A stretch of DNA of 64,000 bases from Isoetes taiwanensis (lineage: Eukaryota > Streptophyta > Lycopodiopsida > Isoetales > Isoetaceae): the NCBI GenBank assembly GCA_021234155.1, contig JAJEKV010000100.1, positions 534,116 to 598,115 of the forward strand, written 5' to 3'. A program made the translations under genes and the position numbers. Below the pieces are notes generated by a model that saw nothing but the letters and a program-made list of their open reading frames with translations, had not been told where the DNA came from and made no database searches. Positions 8,397 to 59,249 of this stretch are shown one piece after another; the first letter of the stretch is position 1; the number at the start of each line of letters is the position of its first letter.

Positions 8397-8473
<77 letters not shown>

Positions 8474-8562
8474 ATATACACATAATTACATATATATATC
8501 CGACAAGAAAAGAGAACTCTTGCGGTATAAATCTATACGGAGAAACGGTATAAATTTATACC
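8088..8562. repeat. Cluster of 16-bp perfect palindromes
   Basis: The palindrome GGTATAAATTTATACC occurs at 8150, 8182, 8214, 8266, 8318, 8348 and 8547, with variants at 8088 and 8524 and a near copy at 9254. Spacings are 32, 32, 52, 52 and 30 bp. The joints are themselves palindromic (CGCGAGAGCTCTCTC type). All lie inside the 2.26-kb transposon. Confidence 0.9.
8407..8470. repeat. (TA)n microsatellite
   Basis: An uninterrupted TA run of about 64 bp inside the transposon. Shorter TA tracts follow at about 8572-8625. Confidence 0.95.
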
Positions 8563-8585
8563 GAATTGCATATATATATAAGACT

Positions 8586-8622
<37 letters not shown>

Positions 8623-20297: not shown

Positions 20298-21815
20298 CAC
20301 ACCACCACATCACACTAACACTACTCAATAGTTCTTACTTATTTAGAAGGAACATGATGCACACCTGAATCTATCATCATGTTATCAGTACTCCCTAGAA
20401 CACTTGTATTAGGTGGAACAGAAGGTCCACTAGGCTTGTCCACATCATAACGTTCAACATCACGTGACATGCTAACATAATTAGCTTCAGCAGCCTGCTT
20501 CTCATCATCTTGTCTGTCGTAACATCTTGCAATTGACCAAGCCGACCACAATAATCACATGCATAAGGTTGATAACCGCGTGGCCCTCGACCACGTCCAT
20601 AGCCAACACGACCACTACCACCACCACTACCACGACCACGATCATCATAACCACCACCACTACCACGACCACGACCATACGAATCATATGTTCCACTGTC
20701 ACAGCCACGACCATATCCACGACCACCACCTCCATTATAACCACGAGAAAATTGAAACCTTTAGTAAATTTTTAGTGTTGTTCAGTAAATTTAGAAGAAC
20801 TTTGTCTCTTTCGTGTATCTGCCACCATAGCAACATCTTTTACAATAGGAGGCGCAACAATACGACGCACATGATTCTCTAAGGATTCACAAGCATCTTC
20901 AAAAGAAATATTTTTCTTATTCATTAAGATAGAAATAATAACCCCAAACTCAGAAGATGGAAAAGTTTCTAATAACTGCATAACTAACTCATCTTTTGAT
21001 ATAGGTGCACCAGCTGCAGCTAATTGTTCAATAATCTCTTTGAAACAGTCAATATGTGCTCGAACAGTAATCCACGAATCAAACTAAAGATTTGCTAAAC
21101 TCCTCTTTAAGAAAAGTACTTCTTGTTTCGTTCTTTTATTATAGACCAAATAATTCCAGACCTCACTAGACGTATCAAACTGATCAACATATTAGAAAGT
21201 GATGATTTGCTTGATTTTGTTATTGGTAAAAAGGAGCGTCCGAAGCAACCAGTGCAGGGTAATCAATTGGTCACTTTTGGCAAAGATTTTGATGCGTGGC
21301 TTAAAGAAGAAGAACAGTGGAAAATCAAAGATCGTGCAACACCCATATTAGAAAGTGATGATTTGCTTGATTTTGTTATTGGTAAAAAGGAGCGTCCGAA
21401 GCAACCAGTGCAGGGTAACCAATTGGTCACTTCTGGCAAAGATTTTGATGCGTGGCTTAAAGAAGAAGAACAGTGGAAAATCAAAGATCGTGCAGCACGA
21501 CGTTTATTAGTTCATGGATCGAGCATTCATTAGTTCAATCCATAAACTAATAAACGCTGTGCTGCATGATCTTTGATTTTCCACTGTTCTTCTTCTTTAA
21601 GCCACGCATCAAAATCTTTGCCAGAAGTGACCAATTGATTACCCTGCACTGGTTGCTTGGGACGCTCCTTTTTACCACAAAATCAAGCAAATCATCACTT
21701 TCTAATACACATTTTATTTTTCTTTTCCAACCCGGATATCCAGTACCATTAAAAACATAAATCGTCTTTGCTGACGAATCGCCTTTCACAGTTATTACAT
21801 GCTGCTCTGATACCA
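20291..21815 (-). mobile_element. Copia gag relic with primer-binding site
   Basis: On the minus strand, TGGTATCAGAGC (21804-21815), the usual Copia initiator-methionine tRNA primer site, is followed by a gag start with TGYPGWKRKIKCVLESDDLL (about 21700-21780). Further along are the gag core LLETFPSSEFGVIISILMNK and FEDACESLENHVRR (about 20870-20990), a Gly/Arg-rich stretch (about 20580-20750), a zinc-knuckle remnant around CDYCGRLGQ (about 20545-20575) and a protease remnant MIDSGVHH (about 20355-20380). The relic is broken, with several breaks. It ends next to a 33-base A-tract in its own sense. The protease motif occurs again at the start of the 3.5-6.4 kb pol relic, so the two are not simply one element cut in two. 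Confidence 0.8.
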
Positions 21816-31860: not shown

Positions 31861-32520
31861 AGCATGCTACAATGATGAATTAAAAAGGGCTAACCAATGG
31901 TCAAATGGTTAAGAGAAAAATCGTCTATGGTATCAGAAAAGTAGTGAAGGGAAAAACCAAGGTGCAAGATCGCATCTATGAAAATAGAATTTTGCCATCT
32001 CGGCCATCTTAGTAGGAGCCGATTTGATGTAAGAAGAGTAAAAGATGATAAGATGGAGCTGGAATTGGGCTTAAGAGGTTGATTGCCATGTTTGCAAAGT
32101 GCTTGTGCTATCAAAATTCAATTGAATTCGTTGTCCATTAAAAGCTACAATGCACTGCATGAACAATGTTTTTAGCTGGACCATTGAGTATTTTGAATAA
32201 TAGTAATTTCAAGGTGCTTGTGGGCTTCTCCTAGGCCGGAAGGTTGCTTCAAATATTGTCGGACACAAAGCGTTGGTTTCTACAAAGTCGTTTTCTTTTA
32301 TGGCTCTAGAGGCCGATGCTTATTCTCTTGCTCTGGCATGTCTTGCCAGTTTGATCCTCTTCATTCTTTTGTGCTTCGTCATTCTTCCAGTTTGCTCTGC
32401 CATTCTTTGCACCGTTTCTTCATCACATCGTTTCTTTTCACATTCTGCTGGCGGCGCCACTTAACAAAGGGAGGAGTGCTACTTATCAAGGGAAGCAGCA
32501 AATATGACAGCAAAGTACGT
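31861..32520. other. Intergenic, no gene recognised
   Basis: Nothing conserved was seen. Open frames at 32218-32559 are short and low in recognisable content. ATGGTATCAGAA (about 31928) resembles a Copia primer site but has no LTR beside it. Confidence 0.4.
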
Positions 32521-32522
32521 AA

Positions 32523-32884
32523 AGGACGGTTGTCCACATTCAGCCGTCCTGTCCAATAGATGCATGACACGTGTCCTTTTTTCAAACACCGAAAGTCGCC
32601 CAAGAATTTTACTCTCGTTTCTTTTTTTTTACGTGACCTAAAAACTATTCTATTCTATTCTGTCACTTTTACCCTCTTTTCTGATTTTCTTACTTGACAT
32701 TCCGTTGTTTTTGTCTGATGCAGGTACACGTGGCGACGTCGGAGTGGTCCAACCGTACCTTTATGTTAATGCAAAGGTCCCCTGGCCTGTTTTCTGCCCG
32801 GTCAAGCAGGCCTCCGCGCTCCGCGCGTCGGCCCGCTTTCCCGGGCAGAAAACAGGCCAGGGGGCCTTTCCCTTATCCGGAAAG
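32523..32884 (+). other. Two-hairpin structured element, copy A
   Basis: Outer arms ACGGTTGTCCAC (32526-32537) and GTGGTCCAACCGT (32744-32756) pair imperfectly. Between them are the G-box palindrome GACACGTGTC (32566-32575), a pyrimidine-rich stretch with repeated TTCTATTCTGT-like units, and ACACGTGGCG. A second hairpin follows with 29-base arms (32773-32801 and 32841-32869, 28 of 29 pair) starting AAAGGTCCCCTGG and ending in CCTTT, with a 39-base GC-rich loop. Immediately after is CTTTCCCTTATCCGGAAAG (32866-32884). It lies about 160 bp upstream of the DUF7722 promoter. Confidence 0.75.
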
Positions 32885-32987
32885 AAAAATGAGATGAATG
32901 AGGGCGAAATTACACCCTCCTATTTTCGTACAAATACAAATTTCCAAAAGTAATGCGCTAATGCGAGGCAAATCTTTGTGGCGTCCA

Positions 32988-33049
32988 TATATGGTATGTC
33001 ATACCATATACCATATACATATACGCGTATAGAATTAGGAGCTTATAAG
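32988..33049 (+). promoter_or_regulatory. Palindrome and TATA box of the interrupted DUF7722 gene
   Basis: A 10-bp-arm hairpin, TATATGGTAT / ATACCATATA (32988-33010), lies 32 bp before CTTATAAG (33042-33049). That TATA-like box is 44 bp from the start codon. The intact paralogue has TTATAAG at 59181, also a short distance from its start. Confidence 0.55.
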
Positions 33050-33325
33050 GCCGTCGTGAGAGTTTTGTGTAGCAGAAATTCCTCCTCCCGCCATGTCTTC
33101 AGACCTTGTAGTCCGCCTTGTGAAGCGCATCCGATCCTTTGATTTCCTAGTAAAGCTTGGCCAATCCGACGAGGAACTTCATTTGCCTTCTAACGGCCAT
33201 TCCGTCCCTCAATGCCCTTACTCTGCCGTTTCCAAGCATCCTTGCCCTTACATTTTCCAAATGCCTCTTCATTACCCTAAATATAGTCTACCACAGTATG
33301 AGGCCATGCCGGAATGGCAGCTTGA

Positions 33326-36300
33326 TCTTAAATATAGAACAATGGAGAAATATTGGATGAATGAAGCCAAACGTGGCTTGTACACAGATATAGGTAAGTA
33401 CCTACAAAAGGACACGTCTCTATACTAGAGGACATGTCTCTTCACGTGACTAGGATTGCCACCTAGGCGTGGTCACATGGCACTTGCCATGTCATCAATC
33501 CTTGATCTATATGATCACTAATATTATATTCTAACACTCCCCCTTGATCAATAGATCAAGAAGGATTGAACTCTCCTCTGGCAAATCTCCCCCTTAATGG
33601 AGAGAATTCAAATGCCCTTCAAATTTGAGAATTCAAACTCTACTTTAGCTTAATAGATCATAATGCTACGAGGATGCCTAGATCATATAAGTTAGGCCTT
33701 CTCCCCCTTGATCTATAGCATCCGAGAAATGCTAAGATCATACAATGGGATCCTCACTATTATGATGACTATTTAAGATTCTAGACACTAGAACACTGTA
33801 CATAATAATTCAGAAGAAATTCGTCCCAACAAACATGGGCCTTCGTCGTGACATGAATTTCCCAAATTTAAATAGAAAAATTGAGAATGCTTGTCCATGT
33901 CGTACCTATGTGCATGGTCACCGAATTTTGTTGCTGAATAGGCATGAAATTTTAGTCTTGTATGTGACGGTTCCACCAGTCTGCGCCATATCTGGGATAT
34001 GTCATCAATTTTTAGGGTTACCTTGCACCGAACTCGTGGCTTCTGCGACGATTTTGGGGCTTCCTTTTCGCCTATCGATTTGAAACTCTCAGACACTAGG
34101 GCTTGCTTGATTGGCATGATTCCGACCTCCCTAATGCGCTCTGAAATGAAATGTCCATTCCCTTCAATCTTCGAATTCTTTAAAACTATTAGCATGACAT
34201 GGGCCGATCTTCGTAGGATTTTTGTTTCTGGCTTGAAATGTCCAGTTCTCCCAATTTGTGGGGTTTTTGAAACTTGATGGTCTGCTCCTCTTGGTTTACC
34301 ATCGCCTACAGGATATGCTGCCTTCAATCTGCCATTTGCCCCAATATCTAGGGCTTCTTCTGCGGCTTCCATCATAGCAAACGCATAGAAAAGGGCCAAG
34401 GTCTGTAGGATGCATGCCAGCACATCTTCCGGGATTCCTTCTAGCATCGACTCTAGCTTCACAGCTTGTACTGGTGCTCTTCTAAGAATCAATTTTCTAA
34501 GATATGTGTCTGTTTCGATTTCTGTTGTAGGATTCGCAAAAATTGCTCCAGCTGGCTGCAAATCCTTTGCCTTAGCATCTTGCAGGAGCTTTTCAGTGTT
34601 CACGATGCTTCTCTGTAGAATCAAATTTTTGATGTGCTCAATTTTTGGGACTTTTGAAACTGCTTGCTCCGCTCCTCTTAATTTAGCATCTCTTCCGGCA
34701 TACGTGGGCTTCAATCTGCCCTGCTTAAGAGTTTCTATAGCTTCTTCTGCCGCTCCACATGACGATGGCATTGAATCTACCTTCATAGGGAACAAATTAG
34801 ATTGGGTATTCATTATTCTTCTGCTGATATAATGTTGGTGTTGGGGCCAATAATTCTGGTTTATTTGCATGCTTAGGGTGAAATCACACTTGTGCCCGCC
34901 CAGGATCTGAAATTTTCATCCGCCAATAAAATTCTTGCGTTTCAAATTCTTGGGCGCCCCCTCTATCACACTCAGGGTGCCCGAGACGCAAGATTTCCTG
35001 GCAGGTGCGGATTCACGAGGCGGGGGTTATCCACGACCAAGATCTTGGGCACCGCCACGTCGAAAACCCGTTTGCGAGAGAAATATCGAAGAAGAAAAAG
35101 ATTAGGGTTCTTCTTGCTTCAACGGATACTTTCGGTTTAGAAAGATTCATCCCGGTAGTTTTACGCGCAGAATGAAGCGGTTGTGAAAAACACTTCGCAA
35201 TGATGCATGGACGATAAAAGTCCAACTATCGAAACCTAAAGATCGAGCTAACCCAGCCCAAAATCAGTAGAAAGCTAACCCAGAACTTGTAGAAAGCTAA
35301 TCCGTAGTGATTTTCAGGAATTTGGGCAATTCTAGAACAGAATCGGAGCTGCAGCATGTCGATTTAGGGTTCTTCGATTTTAGGGTTCTTCAAGCTCCGA
35401 CTGTTTTCATGTATAAAAATCTTTGACGTGGCATGTCATTTTTGGGCGCAAGTCTGATACCGCTATCTTGGCCATCTTCATCCCCTGTCCAAGACATAAA
35501 AAACTCAATCCTGGGCGGGCTATAGTGTGATTTCACCCTTAATTCGATCTCTGCAATGCTTCCAGGATGCTTCCTTTGCCCATAATCAGCGCCAGGATTT
35601 GTTTTGTGAACAGCTATTTCTGCCCAAATTCCATATGGGGCCTGTAAATTTGTCATCACAGATGTATCTGCCTTGATTTGTGCATGGTTTCTCCCTTCCA
35701 AATTCTCTTCTGCAGGTTCGCCTCTGTCTAGAAATCCCACATTATAAAATAATTCTTTTGCTTGTAAGGAGTACCTTTCCACAACGACATCTTTCTCAGT
35801 CTTTTCTTCTTGTGGATCCGTCTGATCATTGCCAGGGATTCTATCTTCAAATTGGGTGCTTTTTGCTCTGTCTTCCGGCAATGGCCTATAATTCAGCATC
35901 TTTAGCAGCGGCCACAGATCCAAAGGGATTCTTAACCCCATCATTTTTCTTATCCCTGTGGGCTTCAGCCGTGTACCCATTAAAGCGAGAGATTTTGCTT
36001 GTAATTTTTCAGCAGCCTCTTCAAGGGCAACAGAATCTTCTGCCACTAGCCTAATCCGGCCTGATGTGGGCATCTCCATCTCTCCTACCTTATCCTCTTG
36101 CCCGCTTATGGCGTCATCGATTTCTAAATGTTCCTTCTCCTGTGGAATTTTCCTCTGAACCAGCATGCTTTCTTCCCTTCTGCATGGTTCATTCTGCTCT
36201 ATAAAAGAATTCTCCAACCAATCTTCTGCTTCCTGCTGCAAATTCTTGCACTCTTCAAGAAGCTGTTCTTCCTCCTTAATAACTTCTTCCAGAAATGAAT

Positions 36301-36644
36301 TCGTTACTAATTCCTCTTCCATAATCAAACAATCTGATTCTTCAAATCCCTTACTTCTATCTGATTGCATTGCTGCATTGCTTGATGTTAAGTCTTCTCC
36401 CAGGATCGATTCAGAGCTCAGGCTCTGATACCATCTTAAATATAGAACAATGGAGAAATATTGGATGAATGAAGCCAAACGTGGCTTGTACACAGATATA
36501 GGTAAGTACCTACAAAAGGACACGTCTCTATACTAGAGGACATGTCTCTTCACGTGACTAGGATTGCCACCTAGGCGTGGTCACATGGCACTTGCCATGT
36601 CATCAATCCTTGATCTATATGATCACTAATATTATATTCTAACA
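33326..36644 (-). mobile_element. Young Copia-type LTR element, non-autonomous, looks whole
   Basis: Two 211-bp LTRs (33326-33536 and 36434-36644) look identical by eye. Each starts TGTTAGAATATAATATTAG on the minus strand. The element is flanked by a 5-bp duplication CTTGA (33321-33325 and 36645-36649). The primer-binding site TGGTATCAGAGC abuts the 5' LTR (36422-36433, minus), and a purine tract AAGGGGGAG precedes the 3' LTR (about 33537-33546). The interior encodes acidic, Glu-rich open frames on the minus strand (35390-36523 and 33788-34870) with no recognisable RT or integrase. It is therefore structurally complete but probably mobilised by another element. Matching LTRs imply a very recent insertion. 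A Harbinger-type MITE is nested at 34876-35538. Confidence 0.92.
34876..35538. mobile_element. Harbinger/Tourist-type MITE, 663 bp
   Basis: Terminal inverted repeats of about 31 bp (28 match) begin GGGTGAAATCACACT and end GCCCGCCCAGGAT. They are flanked by the trinucleotide TTA on both sides (34873-34875 and 35539-35541). A TTA target duplication with GGG-starting ends is characteristic of PIF/Harbinger. It sits between the two open frames of the host LTR element and supplies the 3' end of one of them. Confidence 0.88.
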
Positions 36645-36740
36645 CTTGATCGCTTGCTTGAGGAATATGGCCTCCCTTGCACTGGTTCTTTGCAGGAAAA
36701 GAGGGATTTCGCAATCGGTTCTTTTATTTGGAAGATCTAG

Positions 36741-37516
36741 GCTTCTTTGCGCCTTGTTTGCCTATAATATGGTTGTTTGATGGAGATTTCGGCAAAATAT
36801 AGCGTGCTTCGAGGTGATACTTTGCATAAGTCTGATGTTGTAAATGTTCTGTAAAATTGCTTCTCTATGAAATTCTTTTTAAACCTATCTACTTTCTTCT
36901 GGAATTGTCATGAAGGATTTGAGTATGCTTTACAGAAATCTGAGGTAAAAAGTATAATTGCTACACTATTTTCTTTGTTAATGTTTGGTTATGGCTAAAT
37001 ACAAGGCTTCCAGAAATTACAAGGCCATATCTATGCTTGAGTTTAGACATAAACGGAACCAGAATTACAATCAGCATGTGTTCCATAGTAGCAGGAAATT
37101 AGGAAGGGCCAAACCAGGGTCCCTCATGCATGCGGTGCCTAATGAACATGTTAGGGTCATGTGTTTTTGGGTCCCATGCATAAATGGATGAAACAACAAG
37201 AAGAAAAAGACAAAGATGGAAGTGGACTTGGACAGATATTTATGACTAGTTTATCCGATCAATCGGGCCTACATCATGTTCTACAAGTCCATTGTAGGTA
37301 CTGTCCACCTCGTATAGGGGAATGGCTTTGGAAAAGGGTGACTCAGTTAGGCCGAGGGCTCTTTGACTGGGCCAGAAAATGCCTAGAGGGCCATTGGCCT
37401 AACATGAAGGACGGTAGGCACTTTTCAGCCATACATTTTTGCCACATGGATAGTCGAGATTATCTTTGTTGTCAAATGTGGAGCAGCTTCAGAATGTAGA
37501 CCGGAAAAGACGCCTG
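36741..37516. other. Downstream of DUF7722 gene 1, no gene recognised
   Basis: Probable 3' untranslated region followed by non-coding sequence. Open frames at 36985-37191 and 37161-37499 resemble nothing I know. Confidence 0.4.
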
Positions 37517-37834
37517 GAACCAATCCAGCCCTGTCGTCCAATCGTATCGCGACACGTGTCGCTAATTTTTTCTCTGAAAATCGTGCAGGAACTTTACTCA
37601 CCGTTCTGCCATTTTTTTAACCCGTTTTTCTTATCCTGTATTCTGTTGTTTTCACCTACTGTTCTGCTTTTTGTTGCCACGTGGCGGCACTGGATTGGTT
37701 CAAAGCATCTTTCTCGGTAGGGCAAAGTCCCTCCGGGCTTGATTCCCGAGGGTCAACCCGGCCTACCTGCTTTGCAGATCGGCAGGGTTTCCCATCCGAA
37801 TCAAGCCCGAAGGGACTTTCCCTTATTCAGAAAG
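37517..37834 (+). other. Two-hairpin structured element, copy B
   Basis: Outer arms GAACCAATCCAG (37517-37528) and CTGGATTGGTTC (37690-37701) pair perfectly. Between them lie GACACGTGTC (37551-37560), a pyrimidine-rich stretch with TTCTG units, and GCCACGTGGC (37676-37685). The second hairpin has 22-base arms (37724-37745 and 37798-37819, 21 of 22 pair) starting AAAGTCCCTCCGGGC and ending in ACTTT. CTTTCCCTTATTCAGAAAG (37816-37834) follows. The layout is that of copy A, but both stems differ in sequence. Confidence 0.8.
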
Positions 37835-37991
37835 TGGAGTGACGATGATGACTGATGAGATTCGTAGAAAAAATTATTGCACGTGGTCACAGTAGATTGA
37901 TTTAAAGTTTTAAACGGCTAAAAATGGTTGGGTCGTCCACTACGTTCATGAGATGCACATACATTAGCTGCGTTGGGGAAGTTCCCCGGGA

Positions 37992-38055
37992 GACGGTAGT
38001 CCTACCGTCCCGGATGGACAATTATCCGTCCTACCTGGAATCACGACGGATTCCA
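37992..38055. other. Three consecutive small hairpins
   Basis: GACGGTAG-TC-CTACCGTC (37992-38009), GGATGGACAATTATCCGTCC (38012-38031, two mismatches) and TGGAATC...GATTCCA (38036-38055) follow one another with 2-4 bp gaps. They lie about 160 bp downstream of copy B. Confidence 0.85.
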
Positions 38056-40381
38056 TCCCGCCCATTTTTCACTTATTTCGGATTCTTGCCGCCTTATAGA
38101 AGAGGGGACGGCATTTATAGGCCTATTTTTATGCTATGGCGCCATGATCTTTTTCTCTTCTGGCATTTTGAGCTTTTCTCTCGGTGCTTCCCGGATTTAT
38201 CGAGCATTCTCTATCTGCGGCTCTGTGACTCTGTTGCTTGTTGGATACGGTAGTTTTTTATTGGCTTGCGGATTCATGGCTGGCTGATCATGGTGGACCT
38301 CTGTCAGTAAGTAAAAAATGGATCACATGCATTTAGTATGGTGGTTGGCTGCAGAAATGCCGAGAAAGCTTGTTGTAAGTTCTTTAAAGAAACCCATTTT
38401 TTGCATTCTTAAAACTCCCGCTTTCTACAACCTTTTTACGCCAAAGATTTACATGAAAGAGTAGCCCGTGAAGCATTTTTACATGAGGATCAAAAGCTTT
38501 TTGAGGATTCATCCGGGATTAAAAGGTTATTCAGCAGGAGATCTGGAAGAGAAGATTTTTCTGTAGTTCCTTTTGTTGCCGAGGTAGCTGAAGAACCTGG
38601 TTAGGTAAGTATTGATCACTGCTTTGTGTTAAATGCTTGTTCTCAGTTATGCTATCTTGGTTTGCAGGTTATAGAAACTGCTAAATAGGACGAAGAAAAA
38701 TGTGAGGACGATTCTTGAGCATGGTTTATACGCTTCTACTGCATTATTACGTTTCAGATAAGGGATACACATGCTCCATATTTTTTTAGTTCTTTCTTGA
38801 TCATACAGTGAATGCAGACCAATGTGCATAATATTACAGTCAGTAATAGATATATGTTGCAAGGCAAAGATGCGCTTATGAATCTGTCTACTGGCTAAAT
38901 AAATGCGTTGGGCATGGTTTTAATGATTTAAATGTATCTTCGTGTTGCTATCACAGATTTTAGACCATTCTTACTATGGCATAAAGAGCTTCAACTTTGG
39001 CCTACCTTCCTGGAAAATTTGTTGCAGAAGAATCAGATGCCTTACCATATTTCGAATGGCCAAGTTTGAGTTGCTACAAGAAGCTTTTTTTAGAAGTACA
39101 AGTTTATAGATTTGTATATGATGCAGCACAGTTGAGAAATACAAGTCTTATATGCTTCTTCACTTGAATCTTGAGTTAAAAAATGAATGCAAGAAAGATT
39201 TTCTTTCTTCTTAAGTGCATGTTTTTATCTATTTTGCATTAAGACAAGAAATACAAATTTCTTCTCTGTTCCAACACAACATTTCTCTCTCTGTTTTATC
39301 ACAGAAAGGGGCAGGTGAAAGGCCTCGATGTAAAGCTTAAATTTAAGTTTCCAATTTTAAAAATTTCCGGTTGGGAAAATAATTGTAGGGAGCTTCCGAT
39401 TGGAATTTATAAATTCCGAATGACCTGGAAAGTGTTAGGAAATTTTCCTACTGGGGTGAAAAAGTTTCCCCAACACTGTACATTAGCAATGTTGCTCTAT
39501 GGGCCCCAGTGTTGTTAAAAAACCCCGTTTTTAACCATAGAGTACTTCTTAAAAAACCCCTACGTTTTCTAAACGTTTGCAACCATCGGGGGTTATCAAA
39601 AAATGTAAAAAAAAAAAAAAACCATTATCAATGCCTCGAATGACTTTCATTTAGATTTTCTAGTCTAGCAAACAAGATTTTGGAACTATGAGCGGCCGCA
39701 TGCATGTAGAAACATGCGGAATGCATGTAGAACCAGGGTTCTGGTTTTTTGCTCAATGAAAGAAAGGTTTTTACTGCACCATGCAAACCAGGAAACAGTT
39801 CTTGCGCCAATCCAAAACCAGTCAACCAAGGTAACTTTTCCATTCTTCTTCTTTTACAACTAATTTTATTTCGATTCATTTTTTTCTATATTGCTTCTGA
39901 AGATCTGACTGCCATAAGTGATAAATAGAAGCAGGAAGTGAACCAAAACCGTTCCAAAGGTATAGCTGCTTCAAATAATTCTTTTTTACCTATATTCATT
40001 TCTCTTCTATCTACCTCTAGTATGATAATAAGCTAAATCTTTATGTTAGTTGTTATATTATTAAGTTAACGTATTCTAAGATTTTAAAAACCAAAAATAA
40101 AAAACTTAAAAAAAACTTAAAAAACGTATGCTACCCGTATGGTATGCAAAGTATTTAACAACATTGGGCCCTACTCATCACCTCACCTCATTTTGCACGC
40201 CATCATGATTCCTGTCCATTTTGGAGGACACTTCCGTTTTGCAGCCCACCTCTTAACATGGCACAAATCCAGACCATACAATCTGGAAATAACGTCAGAT
40301 GGGGGGTTGCAAAATGAAAACTAGCCCAATTTGGTTGGTCATGACTTAGAGAACTTAGCAATTCTCTCTATACTTAAAAAA
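38056..40381. other. Intergenic with a palindrome cluster at 39402-39517
   Basis: No gene is recognised. At 39402-39417 is the perfect palindrome GGAATTTATAAATTCC. At 39431-39477 an outer pair AGTGTT/AACACT encloses two adjoining hairpins (AGGAAATTTTCCT and GGGG...CCCC), and CAACACT/AGTGTTG pairs again across 39471-39517. This may be the core of an unrecognised fold-back element. Confidence 0.5.
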
Positions 40382-40632
40382 CAGTTAGGTTCAATTTCAT
40401 CGCGTCCGCCAGTAGCGCCTTGCCATGTGGCGCGTTCCTTATATTAAATGTTAATAAATTTTTGCTTTATGCGTTTACCTGACATTCAGACTTTTTATCT
40501 GACATTCAGGCTTTTTACCCGACATTCTGGCGATGGAATTGAACCTAACTGTCTTCCACGTTGCAACAAAGACCATTTACCTTGCATTCTGGGGCGTTGC
40601 TTCCACGCCAGAGTGCAAGGTAAATGGTCTTT
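40382..40632 (+). other. Two-hairpin structured element, copy C
   Basis: Outer arms of 22 bases (40382-40403 and 40530-40551) pair at 21 positions and begin CAGTTAGGTTCAATT. Between them are TGCCATGTGGCG and three spaced GACATTC units followed by CTTTTT or CTGG. The second hairpin has 25-base arms (40568-40592 and 40608-40632, 24 of 25 pair) starting AAAGACCATTTACC and ending GGTCTTT, with a 15-base loop. Same plan as copies A and B, again with different stems. The right side is cut off by the insertion of a LINE. Confidence 0.8.
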
Positions 40633-41699
40633 TTTTTTTTTTTTTGAAGAACTGTGTCATCAATATATTAAAAGAATGGTAATGTTACAAAGCAAGCGAG
40701 GAGGAAGGAGAACTGCCTCAAAGAGACAGCGATACCTCGACACTCCACAACAAACTCACAAAAGAACTGCAACTCTACTGCTGTACAAACCGACCATCAC
40801 TATCTACAACACCCAAGAAGTCCCGCCAAATGGCAAACTTCCGCTCTACTAATCCCGGGAACACCAGAAAGCTTTGAAATAGCTTGTACCTGAGTCGAGG
40901 AATCGAGAGAGGCCGCAGTCAGCTCAATCCCCGAAGATCCACAACCGCCGCCCGCTTCCAAATCAACCACACCAACCAAGCCACACGACAGATGCAAGGC
41001 TTGCCGCCGCAAGAGCGGCCAAGCACCGTGATACACATGAAACAAAGAATCTGGCGGCTAGTCAATCTCACCAAAATGTAGCCCCGACCCAATCCCAGCG
41101 CACGCAAGTGAGGGCATAAAACCGCATAATGCTCCACAATTCCACGATGAAGGCCACAACAAGAGCAAAGAGGGCTTACACCCGGCCTAAACTGACTCAC
41201 AAGGACATTCACCCTGATACAGCGGTGCACCACCTGCCACATACTAACCTTCGGTGGAGGAAGTGAGCTCCATGTCCACGTCCAAACCGAGCGCCATCGA
41301 GAACCCGGAAGCTGCAGAGACCACTTGCCTAAAGGGGGCAGAGTGTCATGGATAGACAACACCCGGTAACAAGACCGCACAAAACAAGAAGATACAACAT
41401 CCGGATGAACCTTCCAAACCTGCACCACCACATCATCCTGAGAAACTATAGGTATGTGTAGCGGAATACTCCCCGCCACTTGTTCCCAGATAGCCGGGTC
41501 ACTGCCCTTCAGGCGAAAGCGAGCTCGAAAGAACTCCCACGAAGCTAGCTGACCACCCCAATACCAATCCTCCAAGGTGAGCACAGCAGCTCGCCTCTTT
41601 CTTGTATACATACAGCAACGATATAGAATGGTTGTCTCAATGAATGTCAACATATATGCTTTGATAATATGCCCCATGTAATTCTCTCTTTGTTCACAA
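40633..41699 (-). mobile_element. LINE 3' fragment (zf-RVT region), 5' truncated
   Basis: A T-run at 40630-40645 is the poly(A) tail on the minus strand. The 252-codon minus ORF (40919-41677) carries WSSLPPPKVSMWQVVHRCI, then CSCCGLHRGIVEHYAVLCPH (C-x2-C...H...C) and VAWLVWLIWKRAAVVD. This is the zf-RVT order found after the reverse transcriptase of plant LINEs. The catalytic RT is absent, so it is strongly 5' truncated. AAATGGT before the T-run and again at about 41699 may be the target duplication. Confidence 0.8.
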
Positions 41700-41755
41700 A
41701 ATGGTTGTATGGCTGACTGTCAACATATATGCTTTGATAATATGCTCTATGAGGG
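41627..41755. repeat. Direct repeat of ~50 bp
   Basis: TGTCAACATATATGCTTTGA with flanking AATGGTTGT occurs in two copies 74 bp apart, at the truncated 5' edge of the LINE and just beyond it. Confidence 0.85.
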
Positions 41756-44700
41756 TAGCATGTACTAACATATTAGATCATAGATCTATTATTCCAAAAA
41801 TTTACCATTTCAGTAATACCAAGCTTCGGTTCCACACTATTGCAAGGTGCCCCACTTTGATCAATGGGATCACATATATCTCCCTTATCATCTTGGAGCC
41901 TTGTCAAACTTGTTTTGCATTTAAATATAATTAAGTTGTACAGTCCAAGTTTTGCACCACTACTTTCCTTCGTAATTAGAAAAGAAAATCATGTGCTAAA
42001 TTTAACAAATACTTTTTGCAGCAATTATGTTGCCATAAACGCATATGCAGTTGGAAGCAATAATATACAAACCACATCAACTCAATTTTTCTCTTTTACG
42101 ATGGAACTATAGTATACTAATGCTTGATAGCCTCATTTTTGCAAATCACCCATATCTCTAATATATAATTGTAATGAGATTGATAAGGGGGCAGCTTAAA
42201 TGTGGTTATGTTAAAATATTTCTATGTTTGAGGTTGCTTACGTGTAAGCATATGAATATTTAGGAAGAATGGTCGGCTTTCTAGAAGGTACTAGGCAATT
42301 TGTGGAAGGTTCGAGCGTAGGTCCAGAATGTTTTAGATGGCTCTGTGTTTTGATATAAAATGGAGTAGCGGGCGACAGCCGAGGCCGTAGCTGAGTTTGA
42401 TTGCGTTTTGATCGCAGGTTTAGCGCGGGTTTAAAAGATGGCGTTTGCGCAGACTGAAGTTACTATGAGAGTTAGGTTGGGGTTTCAGTCTTAAACTGAA
42501 GCTCGGTTTTTAGTTTCGGCTGGATTCCAGTGCCTAGAAAAAGTCTGAGCTGCAAAAACCACAAAAAAACTAATTTCAATTTTGGCAGGGTCCAGACCAG
42601 TGCCATGGAGCAAAGTTGAGGCTGCAAAAAACACGAGAAGACCACGTAGAGCCATGATGCTCCCTAATAAGCAAGAGGCAATCGATTCTTTTTTAAGGAT
42701 ACTTAGAGCGAAATCGAAACTTTGCTTCTTGTGTTCTGCCAAGCAATCATTGGTAACAATTCGTCAATTGACGTTTGTTAATATCGAATCTATTTGTTAT
42801 CAGAAAGATGTTGCAAAAAAATTCTCCCAACGATAGTGCTACAGTAATTGAATAGCACGCATTGTGACGAGCCTGCCGAGTTGACCCTCCTGGCAACTCG
42901 GGATCTTGTTGTAAAGACTCTTGCTAGGTTGATATGACAAACAATTGATGATGGTGAAGAATTGAATCTTCCTTTTGCACAGTTAAAATGACACACTCAA
43001 AACTCAATGAGCAAATACTTGAGATCTCAATATAATCACACAACATTAACATCCAAAGAAATCCATATTCTCAATAGTTACAGCGTCCATGTTTAATAAC
43101 TCAACCTTAGAAGCTTCTCGCTCATCCATGAGCCACAACCGCGCTGATGCCATCGCCTTGCTCTTTCACTGCACATGCACTCACTGGGGTTAGTCTTCGT
43201 GACTAAGTGGGGATCCCTGGCTGTCTCTGCATGCATGGAAATAATCTGGAAATCTTGGATAAGCACAAACACAGACGGAGAATCCTATGTGAGTACAGTG
43301 CTAAGACAATGACAACATAATCCAAGGAATTACTAAACATAAACATCAGAAGCAAAGAACATATCCAAAATACCAAACCATCATGACACATAGCTCCGGG
43401 ACAATGGGAAGCTCAGCCAACCTACAGGCAGGCCCTGTTAGCAGAGAAATGCCCAGTCAGCTCATATATCGATGCCGAACCCTACCCTTTTGACAGCAGG
43501 CCTATGACCTTACCAACATACCAAGAGCACTATGATCACAATACAAACATGTCGAGGAAGTCACAAGCATATTGATATGAATCCAACGCATATGTACTTC
43601 ATCGGTTACGCCAACACTGCTCCATGCCATAGCCATACTCAAAAGTCTCCATAAGCTTCCTATGACTCTCTTGGCCAACTACTCAATCCCATATCATGCC
43701 TTACCTTCAAAAGTTCCATCTCAATAGCTATAATTCAATCATGAGCTATGGTTTTAATATAAGTCTACTTTCCATAACTAATGGAAAATCTCAAGACCCA
43801 ACACTTTCACTTAAGAATCAATGTAACATAATGACCGCAACTGCATGTAATCCTTGCGACATTATTCTGAATCATAGCTCCATCTTTGGGAGCCAAAACA
43901 ATACAGATGACACAATTCTTGAGCTTCATGCTTAACTTATCGATTAGCTACCCAGATGCTCATATTCTCCTTTACTTCTATCAAGGAGGATCTACTTAAG
44001 CGCCATCTCAGAGGTCAATTTGTCAGGTTCTTTACCACTTTAGAGTCATCAACCCTTATATTTCATACTAATTTAATTAGATTACAATCATTCAAAGTAA
44101 TGCATTTCCTTACTGTTGCAATTCTTGTGATTATTCTGAGCAATTTGTGGCAGTCATCACTGGTTCCATCCACATACAAGGCAACTGGGCCCCATTCCAA
44201 AGGTTTATTCTTTAATTAACTCCTTAGGTTAGCAACAAAATACTAACCAAGAAAATATAGAGAACTCTACCAAACAAATATAAACAATAGAAAAAGAAAC
44301 GTGATTGGTTAGTTCCAAAACTTGTAGTCATCCAGCAAAGAAGGTTCAAGACATGCCAATTCTGTGGATTCAAGCTATCTCGGCACTTTTCAAGTATTTC
44401 AGACCTTTTTTACTTAGAATTAGCCCTTTCAGATATGTTTTCAAATGACTGGTTACCTTCCATAGCCTTATGAGTCTCCAACAGTTTCATAATTTATCAT
44501 ATGCACATGCAAAAATCATGTACAGACTACTCATGGCAGCTCGTAGCACCTCAATTGATCAAAAGCAAAACCCCACCTGAGAATTCCTTCATGCATGGAT
44601 CTCTGAACTTCTTGCAATTGCTTGCGTATCAAAAGATCGTCTTCTAGCTCCAAGAATTAAACTGCAAAAGGACATACATAGTGCAGTCAATTCTGATCTA

Positions 44701-44830
44701 GCAGAATTGACATACATAATGCAGTCAATTCTGAAACTCATACGGATGAGTTTCGGCCTGATCAGATAAATTTCGGAAAGCCTACTTGAAGATCTTTCCA
44801 GTAAAAGAAGAATCACCTAAAAAGGATTTC
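41756..44830. other. Intergenic, no gene recognised
   Basis: No conserved protein was seen. Two imperfect copies of a ~60-bp unit containing CAGTGCC and GCTGCAAAAA lie at about 42518-42640. TTTTGATATAAAATGG (about 42348) could be a promoter within an unidentified LTR. The remainder to 44.8 kb is plain AT-rich sequence. Confidence 0.4.
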
Positions 44831-45700
44831 GGGTCGCTGGGATATGATGCTCCAACGTGCTATGCTTACGATGTTCAAAGGATATATTGGTCAGTTTATG
44901 GAAATATTTCTAGATGACTTCACAGTCTACAGTGATTTAAATGATCATTTGACCAAGCTGCGTTTATGTTTCACAAGATGTCGTGAGTATGGAGTTTCTT
45001 TAAACCCTGAGAGATGTACCTTTCTTGTCAACCAAGGAGTACTAATTGAACACATTGTGTGTAATGAAGGACTACTCACAGATCCAACTAAAATACAAGC
45101 AATAATTAACATGCCTCCACCACAAAATGTTACTCAAGTGAAACGATTTATGGGGAAGGCTAATTATTATACGAAATTCTGCTCTAGATTGGCTGAAATA
45201 CCATCATCTTTGAATGGACTAGTTAGTCCAAAGACGAAATTCGAATGGACAGATACTTGGCAAGAAGCATTTGAGAAAATCAAGTTGTTGATGGCATCAG
45301 CACCTATATTAATCACTCCACATTGGGACAAGAAATTTCATGTCCACGTGGATGCATCCAAATTTGCTATTGGGGCTGTGTTAGCTTAACAGATTGACTC
45401 AAAAGTTGACCAATCAATCCATTATGCTTCTAAGCAACTCAATTCCGTAGAGAGAAATTATAACACAACTGAAAGAGAAGGCCTTGCAATGGTCGTTGCA
45501 ATGCAAAACTTTTGACATTACTTGCTTGGCAATTACTTCACATTTTTTGTAGACCATCAAGCTCTCCTCTATTTGGTTAATAAACCATGTGTTATAGGTA
45601 GAATTACACGTTGGTTGTTAATCTTACAGGAATTCAATTTTAAAATTGTCTTAAAACCTGTTGCCAACTTTAGTTAATGGCAGTAGGATAAAAAAATATG
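44831..45700 (+). mobile_element. Ty3-type retroelement relic (RT and RNase H)
   Basis: The plus strand encodes EIFLDDFTVYSDLNDHLTKL (RT catalytic region, with LDD), then LLTDPTKIQAIINMPPPQNV and VKRFMGKANYYTKF. The RNase H start follows with FHVHVDASKFAIGAVLA (about 45340-45388), then IHYASKQLNSVERNYNTTER and FVDHQALLYLVNKP up to about 45600. These are standard plant Ty3 blocks. It is broken, and gag, protease and the start of RT are missing on the left. The Helitron2-like pair begins about 220 bp downstream. Confidence 0.88.
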
Positions 45701-45921
45701 AACAACAAGAGATAGTTCATGTCAACATGATTACTGTCGGTGATAAAGTTTCTTTGTATGATAGGCCCTATGCCCCTTTTGAACTTGGTTAATGTTACAT
45801 CCCAACGTCCTGGAACTAGGTTGCTAATCTATATGTGGGAATGGCAAGATATAGTGTTTACTAAATCTTTTCAAGTATGACTACAAAAACTTTGCCGAGG
45901 TAAGCATATATTACAACTTAT

Positions 45922-46833
45922 TCTGGGAAAGGACTCGCGAGAGACACAAAACCGGCCGAATAGGCTTGTCATTCATCACAGCAGCAGTATACAATGTATA
46001 AGAAGAGAGAGGGGTAGCCGAACATAGGAACAATATCGGACTACCCCAAAAAAAGAAAATGTGCTAAGGCATGATAAGAGGGCAATGGCGACAAGTTCTC
46101 ATCGGGATAAAAAACCCCGCCCTTTCGGGTTTTCGAGGAAAACCCTAATGAGAAATGGTCGCCACCAACCTCGAATGTGGTGCCTAGAGAACAGAGAAAC
46201 CGGACGAGCGCGAAGGCAAACCGAAGCACGACCCCAAACAACCGCTGAAAACCCCATGTAACAACGAGGATGACGAACGAAACCAAAGAAGACCCCAAAA
46301 GCCGGTGGAAGATAGCGAAATCAGAAGACCAAAAACTCAAAAACACCCGTAAAAAGAGTCGAGAAACAAGCCTAGCCATAAAAAAAGAATCCAAATCAAG
46401 AAAGCCGGAAGAGATAAGGCATAAAAAATCGCATTTAAAAAGAGCGAACAAAAAAAATAGCGCCACCGACAAAGTGGAAAAGCATCACCCAAATGGGTGG
46501 AAAACATGATATATAAAGATGCATCACCCTCAAGGTGGCAATAAACAAAGATCGCCAAAAGCGAGAAAAACACAGGAAAATGCCAAGGAAACAGCAACAA
46601 GGCAAAAGCGACACCCACAAGTGAAAAACCACAAAAAGAGCAAGGACCAATACTAATACAAATGAAAAAGACGTACACGCCCACGCAGTAGGGTGGGAAG
46701 GGGGGGAAGCTACGAGCACGAAGAAAATGCTGCTGTGAGAAGACGCCGATAACCGGCCTGAGAATGGAACTAGCCTAATATAGGGGCTCGTCCTTTCCCA
46801 GAATGGCGATCCGATGGCTCGGATCGATGGGAT
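45922..46833 (+). mobile_element. Helitron2-like non-autonomous element, first of the second tandem pair
   Basis: The 5' end is TCTGGGAAAGGACTCGCGAG (45922). The 3' end has the inverse CGTCCTTTCCCAGA (about 46789-46802), hairpin CGATCCGATGGCTCGGATCG (46807-46826) and ATGGGAT. The interior begins with the same kind of CGAATA...TTCATC sequence as the 19.1-kb element and contains the same hairpin loop. The terminal sequence differs from the 19-kb family (TCTAGAATGGGAC), but within the element both ends match each other. There is no Rep-helicase. Confidence 0.7.
46086..46164. other. Long hairpin with family-conserved loop
   Basis: The arms TGGCGACAAGTTCTCAT (46086-46102) and ATGAGAAATGGTCGCCA (46148-46164) pair at 15 of 17 positions. 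The 45-base loop is nearly identical to that at 19359-19405, while the stem is unrelated in sequence. Confidence 0.85.
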
Positions 46834-48195
46834 TCTGGGAAAGGACTCGCGAGAGACACAAAACCGGCCGACTACCAAAGGACTTCCTTAACTATAAACC
46901 CAGGCGCCGCGAAACCTCCAAGTGTTGAGTAGGGTCGCAAAGGACATTTGTGTGGAAGGAAGAGTGGAGAGAGCGAAGACGACAGCAAGGTGAATCAAAA
47001 TCAAATCGAAATCCAAAGCGCAAGATAGAACTCCAAGTCAAGAATGAGGAGAAGTGCCCCAACCCCTCCTGCGCATCCAGCCAAAGATACCTGCAGAAAA
47101 ACATCGAAGGAGCACTACTAGATCATGACAGGAAGAGGTTGTAGACTAGGTAAAGTGACGGATTAAAAATAAAGCTAGGGCCATATATAGGGTCTGAAAT
47201 ACTAAAGCAAAAGACAATAGTGGACATGATAAAGGAACCAAAAACGTAATGACAATCGGAAGGGACATGATAGAAAAATAAGAACGCCAAGTTGAAATGT
47301 AAAATATAAAAGAACGCCAATAATAGGGGGCGAATGAATGTGCATGACGGCGGCAAGTCGCACAACAACTCAAATCGATGTGAGCGCTTAGTAATGAGGA
47401 AATCAACAATACATGAAAAAGAGAGATAGCATCACCCGAAGGGTGGAGAAAAAGCGTCACCCAGCGGGTGGAAGAAAAACCAGGATAAATACAAATTCGC
47501 GTCCCCATCGGGGGGGAAAGAAACAACGCCACCCACAAAAAATAGTCCAAGAGAAACTCATGTCACAAAATTGCAAAAAACGCAATATCTGGCACATCTA
47601 ATCATAGCGAAATAGCAAATATGATAAATAATAATAGCACAATGCACGATGATATCCCAATACACTGTGAACAAAGAGCTCAACGGTTAGCTAGAAATGT
47701 ATGCCCTGACAAATGATGCATAAGGATAGCATAATGCACAATGCACAATGAACAGCATCACCCGCAGATGGAAATAGCATCACCACCATGGTGGAAAAAA
47801 GCGGCACCCAACGGGTGGATAACAATCATGTAAAAAGAAATATGCATTGCAAAATAATGCCCCGGGGGATTCACCTTTATCACATGAGCATATGCCACCT
47901 GCGTGCTTAAGGTGAGAAGAAACACCCCTATATACGTACGCAAAAGTGTTGGAAAAACACCCCTTCCGTGGAGAAAATACACTAGAATGTCAGTAAGAGG
48001 GGGATTTAAACCCCTAGTATACGTACGAAAACATCGAGAAAAAACCCCCTTCCACACACTCACTAGGTTTATACGGGTCTTCTGTGTGAATCCCCCGGGA
48101 ATAATGCTAGACAATGGTATTTACAACATCACTAAAGATAATAAATAGACATGAATGTCACCATCACGGTGGAAATAAATAGCACCACCCAACAA
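46461..48195. repeat. Dispersed GCATCACCC...GGGTGG mini-hairpins
   Basis: Short units of about 17-20 bases with complementary CACCC/GGGTG ends occur at 46461, 46481, 46521, 47429, 47454, 47499, 47754, 47777, 47801 and 48157. Weaker ones are at 46608, 47526 and 48181. Examples are GCATCACCCGAAGGGTGGAG and GCGGCACCCAACGGGTGGA. The core letters vary in a matched way (CACC.CCAT.GGTGG, TCCCC.ATC.GGGGG). Confidence 0.8.
47861..48099. mobile_element. MITE, 239 bp, 8-bp target duplication
   Basis: Perfect 14-bp terminal inverted repeats CCCGGGGGATTCAC (47861-47874) and GTGAATCCCCCGGG (48086-48099) are flanked by the direct repeat AATAATGC (47853-47860 and 48100-48107). The interior holds two imperfect direct copies of a ~50-bp segment with ACGTACG and AAAACACCCCTTCC / AAAACCCCCTTCC. 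An 8-bp duplication suits hAT, but the CCCGGG ends are unusual for it. Confidence 0.9.
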
Positions 48196-48349
48196 AAAAC
48201 GGTCCATAAAAAAACGCGACATCTAGAGAAGGATAAAGCATCAATGTAAAACCATAAAAAAGAACATCAAGAACACGAAAACTAAAAGTGGCCATTAGAA
48301 TGTGCCCAATATAACAGCTTGCGTATAACTACGTAATACACGCCATGCC

Positions 48350-48592
48350 TAGATAAAGAGAAGCATAAAAAGGAAAAAATGATCAAATATAAACCCATGT
48401 CGGACAACAACGTAGGACACCCCATATCTTTAAATAAAGAGAAGCATAAAAAATGAAAGATAATCCAATATACACCCATGTCGGAAAATCTCAATGCAGT
48501 GCCAAACGCAATATGCATCCTATCTAGATAAAGCCAAATAGCAAATATGCCAAAGATGATAAAGCCAAATAGCAAATACGCCAAAGATATAT
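48350..48592. repeat. Short tandem direct repeats
   Basis: Two copies of a ~75-bp unit (AAAGAGAAGCATAAAAA... CCCATGTCGGA) are followed by two copies of a 31-bp unit (GATAAAGCCAAATAGCAAAT.CGCCAAA). Confidence 0.85.
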
Positions 48593-51500
48593 AATGAGCA
48601 TACCAAATAGAAAAAGATCCGCTACAAGTGAAAAAACCCTCAATAGACAGCTAGAACCGCCAGGTGTGGAGTTGGGTCGCAAAGCACATAGCGGGAGGAG
48701 AAGAAGAGGAGCCAAACGACCGCGGAGCGGCAAGCAAGATCATGTGGAACCCCGAAAGTGGCAGCCGCCGAGGCCCGGCCGCGACGAAAGCGTAATGAGC
48801 ACCATACCGAACGGATTTAAGCCGAAGCAAGAAGATACACCCGCCACCACCTCCAAGCAATCGGATAGGATAAAGGACGTAGAGAGGAAGGAGAGGAGCC
48901 AAAAAAGGGGCTGCCGAGGTGCCGAAGGATAATGACAGGCATGCAAACGGCAAGGCAAGCGAAGCAAAGAAATCGTGATGAGCACCGGCAAGTGGGTCTC
49001 GCTTGAAATGGCAGGGGAGAAAGGGAACCAGTAATCCAAGAGTCCGGGTTCAAGCGAGAGGGAAGCCGCTGACGACGAGAACCAAGAGCTGAGCGAGCCG
49101 TGGAGAAAAAAAAGCGGTTGAAGAAGAAGAGCCGAAAAGCACCCGCTATGGATCGGTATCACCAATGACCTCAAAAAGGGAAGGACATTAGAGAACAAAA
49201 CAATGATAAGAAAAGGACGCCGCCACGATGATGAATCGGCGGAAGCGCCCCGCATGCCAACGAGAACGCAACAAGGCGATGAAAAAAATAAACCACGCAC
49301 GCGCATAATGCACATATGATATGAATGCGTATCACGAACGTATGTCCGCGGATAGTTGAATGTGGCTACGGGCACCGGTCCGTGAATGTGGCTATTATTC
49401 CTTCTGAACCTGGGGCCAATATCTAGAGGGAGATAAGTCAACAAAGGAACCTTTCATCATGGATCCCCAAAAAGAATAAACAATAACAATAAATAAGAAG
49501 GCAGAATAACAAGTAACTGAGATAATAAGGCAAAGAGGAAAAAACGTACGCATAGGAATGTAAAAATGCATAGACATAAAGATCGAACGAAAAACATGGA
49601 GATGTTGAGTAAAATCGCACACCACGTAGCGAGCGCGAGAGGACGAGGGACCGCCAAAGAACCGTGAGTACCTAACCTCAACATGTATACCCCGCGATTG
49701 AGCAAAAAACGGAGGAAACGAGGAAGAATGATAAAAACTATGGGCTAAAAGAACATGAAAAGTCACCACGTCTAATAAAGCAACGTCTCGAAACTTACAC
49801 AATGATTATGTAATATCATATATATAGTGAACAAAGCTATGCACGAAAAAGTAAGCCTACTGCGAACATGACAAAGTGGAGCTAACGAAAACAATGAAGC
49901 TCCCAAATCCATAAAATTGGTACACCGAACAATATCACCCATGTGCAAGAACAGAAAATACAACTTCAGGAAACAACAAATAAGTGCGTGAACAAAGGAA
50001 CCAAATATAGAATATACATATAAGAAATTTAGCCACAAAGGACAAAGAGGTGAATAGCAAATATGATGTATAATGGTAGCACAATGCATAATGATAGCGA
50101 ACTAAAAATGAAGTCCCCGAAAAAGACAACAAAGTTATGCGTTAAGCCCAAGCAGAAATACGAGAAAAGAAGAATGTAAGCCAATGAACAAATCAATAAG
50201 AAAATAACCACAGACAAGAGCCCAACAGCCAGAGAAAATGTAAAACACGGTGCCCAACAAAAAATGTAATACAAAAATGATCGACATAGGCCAAAAGATG
50301 AAATCAACACACAGGGCGTAACATAAATAGGAAAAATAATCCGAATAACACAACAACCGCTTGAATAGTGCGAGCATCAAGATCCAATGGAAAAAGACAA
50401 TGGCAAAAGAGAACATAAAGTTTATAAGATCATGCTACATAAAAAGAAACCACGTGGGCAACTAAGACGAAAAATGTAAAAGGAACATATGAAAAGATAT
50501 AACCACCAAATCAAGAACCCCATTACAACCCAAATAGTATAAATTGAGGGCCTCGAGAGAATTGAAAACATCCGAATAACATGAATGCAAGTCATTAACC
50601 ATATTCATCCCCAGATGTTGCAAAATAAAATACACATGTAAAAAAGCATCTCATGAAAATATGCCAATTATCAATCCATAACCATACTCAAAAAGAATTA
50701 ATGCCGGAAATATGGATAGAAAACAATAGCCTAAAGTAAGTCGATAAAATTGTGGAAAGAAGCAAACCTAGAATGGATACCTCACCGGGACTCAACTTGT
50801 ATAAAATGCGACAAAGAATGTAATTCCCCAAGCCCAAAACAAACATCGCCAAAAAACTCACGCCCCCCATGGCAAGAGCTCGGACTAAGGAAAACATCCC
50901 CTATGGACCAATAAAAGGAGACTTTAAAAGGCCACAAAGGAACTTCCGCTAGAAAAATGGCTCAACAAACTAATTGTCTACATTGAGGATCCGAATTTTG
51001 AAACGAGAACGCCCAACCCCGAAGACCACCAACCTTCTACCAAATTTATAATTAGCAAATATAGCTCATATCCAAACCCAAGGAGCAAACCCAAATGATG
51101 ATAAGATAAACCGCAATTAAATACCTACCAAATGAAAAACGAAGCATAAGTCCGGATGCAAAATTGACAGCGATGACATGCATATAAGAAATTTGGTCCA
51201 AAGAAAACCGGGCATTGATCAAGGCGAAGAACATGTGCATGCATGAAAAAAGACGAAAATGGCAAATGCATACATGATCACAATTCAAGCCGATGAGCCC
51301 GGCCCAAAATCAAACCCCAAATCCATTGATATGAACTTCCGTGAAATAATGGCAATAGGAAGTGGGCAAATGTATCATTTTATTGAAAACTTCAGAAATA
51401 AAAACTCATCCATATAACACCTAGAGAAATAAATGCAGTTCTCAATCGACCTCTTGCTAAAGAAAATGCAAAAATAAGTAAATGTCCTTTATACAATTAA

Positions 51501-51984
51501 CAAGTCACAACAACATGATGCAATATCCAAGAAAACCCGCTATAAATGTAGGATGCAGGTGTATATGTAGACAATATGAAGATATGTGGAAAAATAAAAT
51601 GCATATAGGCAAACATGAGAGCCACTTGGACTCCACGACCGCAAAATGCAAAGAGGCTAGATAGCTGCATGGAGTGGAAGAACTACATTGCAACAGTCAG
51701 AGCTAAAAATGGACTTGGAATTGCAAACCTGATGGTGGAAAGAAGAAAAGCAAATTCTAGACATGATCTAAGTAAACTAAAACTACACATCCAACCGTTC
51801 CCCTCGACATCTGCCGGGAGAGCCGGGGCAAATTAAGAAAAGGAAGAACAAGAAAAGCTAAGGCTAAATGTTGCATCTCACCTCCGCTCTCGCCAAGATG
51901 CCCCACCAAACCGGCCGAAATCCAACCTAACAGAGGAGAATGAAGAAAGGAAGCTCTGATCCGATTCAGAGAAAAACAATGGCG

Positions 51985-52045
51985 TATGCTTAGGCTTAGG
52001 CTGGGGCTGAGGCTTAGGCTTGGCTTAGGCTTAGGCTTAGGTGTA
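51985..52045. repeat. TTAGGC-type microsatellite
   Basis: GGCTTA/TTAGGC units repeat about nine times with interruptions. This is not the usual plant telomere unit. Confidence 0.85.
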
Positions 52046-59187: not shown

Positions 59188-59249
59188 CCCCTCCCTTCTT
59201 ATAACCAAAGCACGAAAACGAAAGAAAGAAAAAGAAATATATTTTTACC

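Follow-up and report, generated by a model that had tools for sequence, protein, structure and literature searches.

Introduction

How can the two arms of a hairpin change their sequence from one copy of a repeat to the next and still pair with each other? The question is raised by a locus of Isoetes taiwanensis, in a stretch of 64,000 nucleotides (contig JAJEKV010000100.1 of assembly GCA_021234155.1, positions 534,116 to 598,115 of the forward strand; hereafter the window, with positions counted from its first letter). At about 32.5, 37.5 and 40.4 kilobases (kb) the window carries three modules, copies A, B and C, each of which consists of an outer hairpin followed by a second hairpin (hp2). 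I tentatively read these three, together with a decayed fourth copy, D, as copies of an interspersed, non-coding and probably non-autonomous foldback-like double-hairpin mobile element of about 250 to 390 base pairs (bp), whose stems would be kept by copying one arm onto the other. Arm copying is my first choice over selection for the folded form, which is possible as well. The pattern was first pointed out in a preliminary description made from the letters alone, which was largely right, although its strongest wording did not hold; the pattern goes beyond chance.

Stems that go on pairing through sequence turnover pose an open question in the evolution of both RNA and palindromes, and a repeat that has two such stems, in a genome holding many copies of it, would allow arm copying to be separated from selection by counting: the rate of pair changes against background, the G-U steps, and the blocks copied in one event. 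If the reading is true, an arm-rewriting family would preserve, within a nuclear repeat, a natural record of copying templated by hairpins.

Two hairpins in succession

The presence of two successive hairpins at three places was confirmed both by a search for inverted repeats and by folding. When the window was randomised in 1-kb pieces, none of 30 randomised windows contained inverted repeats equal in strength to A hp2, B hp2 and the two stems of C (the outer stems of A and B fall below the score cut of this test), while the real window holds seven above the cut, four belonging to the modules and three to a duplicated stretch at 21.2-21.7 kb, with AT-rich repeats at 8.0-8.7 kb excluded from the count. 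As single strands, A, B and C fold with z-scores of -10.8, -6.4 and -10.9 against dinucleotide shuffles. As for the other repeats just mentioned, the stretch at 21188-21707 consists of a 156-bp sequence duplicated in tandem, with a third copy after it in inverted orientation (95-98% identical), and at 8088-8625 there is a dense palindromic array of GGTATAAATTTATACC / GAGAGCTCTC next to long AT runs.

All three modules lie on the plus strand. Copy A spans 32521-32884, and its outer stem is interrupted and visible only in the predicted fold, where an imperfectly pairing left arm region at approximately 32517-32580 (AAAGG at 32521, GACACGTGTC at 32566-32575) faces a right arm region at approximately 32726-32767 (CACGTG at 32727-32732, CTTT at 32759-32762). 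Its hp2 occupies 32773-32869, with arms at 32773-32819 and 32823-32869 that form 42 pairs in the fold, and the conserved right end, CTTTCCCTTATCCGGAAAG, lies at 32866-32884. Copy B is contained in 37488-37838 when two imperfect direct repeats, TTCAGAATGTAGA (37488-37500) and TTCAGAAAGTGGA (37826-37838), identical at 11 of 13 bases, are included. Its outer stem (37506-37712, arms 37506-37528 and 37690-37712, 23 long with three mismatches) begins with AAAG and ends with CTTT as hp2 does, and encloses GACACGTGTC at 37551-37560 and CACGTG at 37678-37683; its hp2 lies at 37724-37819 (arms 37724-37745 and 37798-37819). In copy C the outer stem (40381-40552, arms 40381-40403 and 40530-40552, 23 long with one mismatch) encloses CATGTG at 40424-40429 and GACATTC at 40481, 40501 and 40521, and is followed by hp2 at 40568-40632 (arms 40568-40592 and 40608-40632). 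The hp2 stems were found at the lengths first described, 29, 22 and 25, with one T-G pair in A (where 29 refers to the outer part of the stem), one C-A mismatch in B and one T-G pair in C.

The right side of C is cut by a long interspersed nuclear element (LINE). A poly-T run 3' of C hp2 was considered as part of the module and rejected, since it reads as the tail of this minus-strand LINE (zf-RVT match, 40919-41719, minus); a target-site duplication of the LINE was sought and none was convincing.

A and B were also described as sharing a motif after hp2, and CTTTCCCTTATYCRGAAAG indeed occurs only twice in the window, even with up to three mismatches allowed. In B, however, the conserved CCCTTATTCAGAAAG after hp2 pairs in the predicted fold with CTTTCTCGGTAGGG ahead of it (37709-37834 with hp2 included), so that it can be read as a foot or continuation of the hp2 stem.

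Relatedness of the copies

A and B are related. Their strict local alignment spans the module with a score of 91, against a mean of 21.3 (standard deviation 2.7) for randomised copies, none of 200 of which reaches it, and stems, loop and right end all align at about 60% identity in aligned columns. Over the 18 bases past AAAG, the left arms of hp2 are identical at 10 positions between A and B (p=0.005) and at 8 in both A/C and B/C (p=0.057 each). The preliminary description had the arms differing completely between copies, and this is not so for A and B, where arms and loop share in the overall identity.

A profile built from A and B picks up C in the right order (E=0.043), with a score attained by none of 3000 randomised copies, and the left part of C ranks third among 1568 window pieces compared with the left parts of A and B together. 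Under loose scoring, the similarity of C is reached by 0 of 200 randomised copies against A and 76 of 200 against B. When the window was searched with a covariance model of hp2 from A and B, the matches were to A and B on either strand and, weakly, to D (E=1.7); C went unreported at E<=10. A, B and D are one family; C belongs to it less surely.

Paired changes in the second hairpin

For a fair count, all pairs of one copy's own fold were taken and the other copy was read at exactly aligned columns. Counted in this manner, 32 of the 42 pairs in A's hp2 pair in B as well, namely 21 that are the same, 10 changed on both sides and 1 that can still pair after a change on one side, with 9 broken and 1 lost to a gap; in the reverse direction, B's 38 hp2 pairs read in A give 21 the same, 11 double-changed and 2 one-sided, the other 4 being broken. 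In 5000 simulated runs, independent drift of A at 41% divergence keeps a mean of 21.2 pairs (maximum 33) and produces a mean of 3.1 double changes (maximum 11). When a single alignment gap is placed for structure, 36 of the 42 pairs are kept, 12 of them double-changed, and sliding the hp2 partners by one to three columns leaves 9 to 22 of the 42. RNAalifold on A, B and C predicts 79 pairs, of which 31 show a retained change on both sides. Compensatory changes in the hp2 of A and B exceed independent drift, and the claim that the stems change and yet stay paired stands for this hairpin, while being weaker for the outer stems and for C.

Copying or selection?

The preliminary description held that ordinary drift would break such stems, and that either arm copying or selection for structure is needed. 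These are the right two mechanisms to compare, although the decayed copy D did lose its stems.

Unbiased arm copying predicts that pairs change about as fast as an unpaired site, since mutations arise in two arms and half of them are copied across, whereas under strong selection for pairing the stems would be expected to be slower than the background. In the hp2 of A and B, the 38 shared pairs show change at 15 (39%) and the 298 other columns at 123 (41%; p=0.86), and with the gap placed for structure 19 of all 42 A pairs are not identical in B (45%). The pairs seem to change at about the rate of unpaired columns, as arm-to-arm copying predicts. Furthermore, 10 of 13 double changes in the hp2 of A and B are transversions, which favours copying because they cannot pass through a single G-U step; for all A/B double changes the ratio of transitions to transversions is 3:15 against 58:65 elsewhere (p=0.02), and for hp2 alone 3:10 (p=0.14). 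G-T pairs make up only 8 of 200 outer and hp2 pairs across A, B and C. Rate, transversions and the scarcity of G-T pairs weakly favour copying, bearing in mind that the background need not be neutral.

Selection for structure, in which RNA or single-stranded DNA must fold into two hairpins for mobilisation or processing and no arm is copied from the other, is the alternative that survives best, and I regard it as possible if somewhat unlikely. It would explain the strong folds of A, B and C with two stems in the same order in each, it would equally produce an excess of paired changes in hp2, and D, with its stems lost, would be a dead copy. What it does not lead one to expect is that hp2 pairs seem to keep pace with other columns, nor the predominance of transversions in A/B and the few G-T pairs, since RNA under pairing selection shows more G-U pairs and transitions.

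Arm copying, as I picture it, would act on an element with two tandem inverted repeats, an outer hairpin with G-box-like palindromes and a pyrimidine-rich tract and then hp2. In an active lineage the stems, hp2 above all, would remain near-perfect while drifting in sequence at roughly the rate of the background. Any change in one arm would be copied to the other through intra-strand template switching, or when an extruded or single-stranded hairpin is repaired, around the time of replication or mobilisation; copies left in place would decay, as D did. The decayed stems of D imply that pairing is not retained in every resident copy, and upkeep seems to be tied to the active lineage. Both arm copying as a process and any tie to mobilisation are what I infer from these patterns. 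A more specific proposal, and a doubtful one, makes mobilisation or replication the very process by which one hairpin arm is rewritten from its partner, the outcome being stems that evolve in concert at the neutral rate.

A decayed copy around B, probably older

The preliminary description placed all copies in the same orientation, which is correct for A, B and C, but D lies around B on the minus strand. The right half of D (37295-37448, minus, lower end approximate) is matched by the profile from A and B at 37448-37354 with E=2.6e-4, where the reversed window gives E=0.39 at best, and its score is reached by none of 1000 randomised copies against A or B and by 97 of 1000 against C. It retains CATGTGG, the outer right arm, the ATGTTA spacer, the hp2 left arm, part of the loop and a trace of the right flank, but has lost the right arm of hp2. 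What is probably the left half lies on the far side of B (37841-37965, minus, with CACGTG at 37880-37885) and ranks first of the 1568 window pieces compared with the left parts of A and B together, plus-strand pieces at A and B themselves being excluded; under three scorings, of 2000 randomised copies 4, 9 and 2 do as well against B, and 21, 817 and 67 do so against A. A three-way alignment of A, B and D put this left half in the wrong place and played no part in the counts, and matches of its profile to D are circular.

The simplest reading of this arrangement is that B probably inserted into D, an older copy of opposite orientation. The imperfect direct repeat flanking B is a possible target-site duplication, with the right repeat overlapping the end conserved between A and B. 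That the copies are interspersed, that they occur in both orientations and that B is probably nested in D suggest that the element was mobile.

Evidence to the contrary

A number of observations weigh against an arm-copying mobile element and are gathered here. The sample consists of three or four copies, all within one 8-kb stretch, and C is the weaker relative, its strict alignment scores being matched by 11 of 200 randomised copies against A and 102 of 200 against B. Under strict scoring the left half of D reaches no significance against A, and it does not appear among the matches of the A and B profile at E<=10. There is no clean target-site duplication, the best match at A being only 6 bases long.

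The outer stem covaries less clearly than hp2, and its evidence is weak: at exact columns, A's 44 outer pairs are kept 24 times in B and 18 times in C (with 13 gaps), B's 25 are kept 14 times in A and 18 times in C, and C's 23 are kept 15 times in B and 10 times in A. Nor is there a transversion excess in the double changes of the other comparisons, where transitions and transversions stand at 11:6 for A/C and 9:9 for B/C.

Even for hp2, the most striking counts overstate covariation, being conditioned on pairing: this holds for pairs common to both folds (38, one of them added), where 13 are double-changed, 2 single-changed and 23 the same, a result reached in none of 100,000 permutations, and where, in a second test, 36 of 38 are kept and the comparison reaches 28 at most; counts with a structure taken from the same alignment overstate it likewise. 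Allowing one-column shifts keeps all 42 pairs, but drift then keeps a mean of 33.0 and a maximum of 42, so that the test discriminates poorly. Unrelated arms anchored at AAAG and CTTT also yield double changes, and random new arms placed in B gave a mean of 23 same and 20 double against the observed 28 and 15, with 28 same being the maximum of 60 trials. Because this control comes near the observed counts, replacement of a whole arm in one step could also have produced them.

The last point leads to a further explanation, namely that these are ordinary elements resembling miniature inverted-repeat transposable elements (MITEs), or separate inverted duplications, in which A and B belong to an old family of subfamily-variable repeats, possibly with whole-arm replacement, and C is unrelated and placed with them because of a shared layout. 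The random-arm control, the poor strict alignment of C together with its absence from the hp2 covariance search, and the imperfect repeat around B all agree with it. Against it stand the recovery of C in order by the profile and the third rank of its left part, and tandem stems that vary among relatives are unlike the usual conserved terminal inverted repeat (TIR). I consider this explanation improbable.

Weakest is the proposal that the modules are hairpin-RNA loci (MIRNA-like or small interfering RNA) arisen from a repeat and retained as inverted duplications for their small RNAs, which I consider very improbable: the hp2 of A and B are long and near-perfect with sub-threshold resemblance to microRNA precursor models, and a DUF7722-like reading frame (24 bits, where the cut-off is 26) has A about 200 bp upstream of it, but the sub-threshold matches are spread over unrelated families, for A on both strands, as for any hairpin, and Rfam at its gathering score gave no match in the whole window, to a MIRNA family or any other. 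The domestication of plant transposable elements into MIRNA genes is the subject of a separate paper (PMC3086885).

Genomic surroundings

Between A and B lies a long terminal repeat (LTR) retrotransposon at 33325-36646, with two identical 214-bp LTRs (33325-33538 and 36433-36646), what I take to be a tRNA-Met-type primer site adjoining the right-hand LTR, and two long minus-strand reading frames, of which the one scanned (33788-34915) is without a Pfam match. It interrupts a DUF7722-like gene that continues on both sides and is probably a recent insertion. A second DUF7722 frame at 59205-59591 (E=4.4e-23) is at the DNA level 83% and 88% identical to the two parts, near 33 and 36.6 kb, into which the other copy is interrupted.

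Elsewhere in the window, a unit of about 2.73 kb is repeated in tandem over 9775-19070, the copies being 96-98% identical, and one more piece that matches it lies at 6465-7518. The plus strand has a strong excess of A over T along 12 kb (44001-56000), the skew ranging from 0.23 to 0.43 in 4-kb steps, and a fragment of reverse transcriptase/RNase H lies within it at 44805-45389.

Comparison with known systems

Several known classes can be set aside. Helitrons have a short-loop 3' hairpin followed directly by a CTRR end, and on reading the sequence a Helitron end was rejected for A and B, where hp2 is followed not by CTRR but by CCCTTATYCRGAAAG and where the hp2 loop of B measures 52 bases. A tRNA-derived element was likewise rejected, ARAGORN, a finder of whole tRNAs, having reported none in the window. 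The modules showed no transposase, CTTTCCCTTATYCRGAAAG had no matches when IMG/VR was scanned for it, and a literature text search with the motif strings returned nothing concerning this element as judged by titles and the starts of abstracts.

Mitochondrial double-hairpin elements are much shorter than the present modules. The window, moreover, carries reverse transcriptases of LTR and LINE type and DUF7722 frames as in a plant nuclear genome, which argues against such an element here. Like the present copies, the mitochondrial repetitive and double-hairpin elements are small dispersed hairpins, some of them double, that are thought to be mobile; they differ in being mitochondrial and, in sponges, in having conserved stems and variable loops, the reverse of what is seen here (PMC2800124).

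Plant MITEs and foldback elements are, like the present copies, short non-coding repeats with inverted repeats and nested insertions. The members of a MITE family, however, share one TIR, whereas here two tandem stems differ between copies and no clean target-site duplication accompanies them. No inverted-repeat sequence common to the family was found (10, 8 and 8 of 18 identical bases in the hp2 left arms), and at its two ends the whole module carries arms from different stems, with only an AAAG-like start in common; the outer stem and hp2 are each inverted repeats.

With the terminal hairpins of parvovirus type the likeness is one of working only, in that one arm can template the other; the present modules were found without a replication gene and do not stand at the end of a molecule. 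Hairpin-primed replication is mentioned, and template switching as both maker and mender of hairpin stems is published, in PMC8794818. The template-switch mutations treated there are close to the preferred reading of arm copying, with perfect stems and multi-base compensatory changes that are accounted for by copying arm from arm. They concern the histories of ribosomal RNA and microRNA genes, whereas the present case is an interspersed plant repeat with two long stems.

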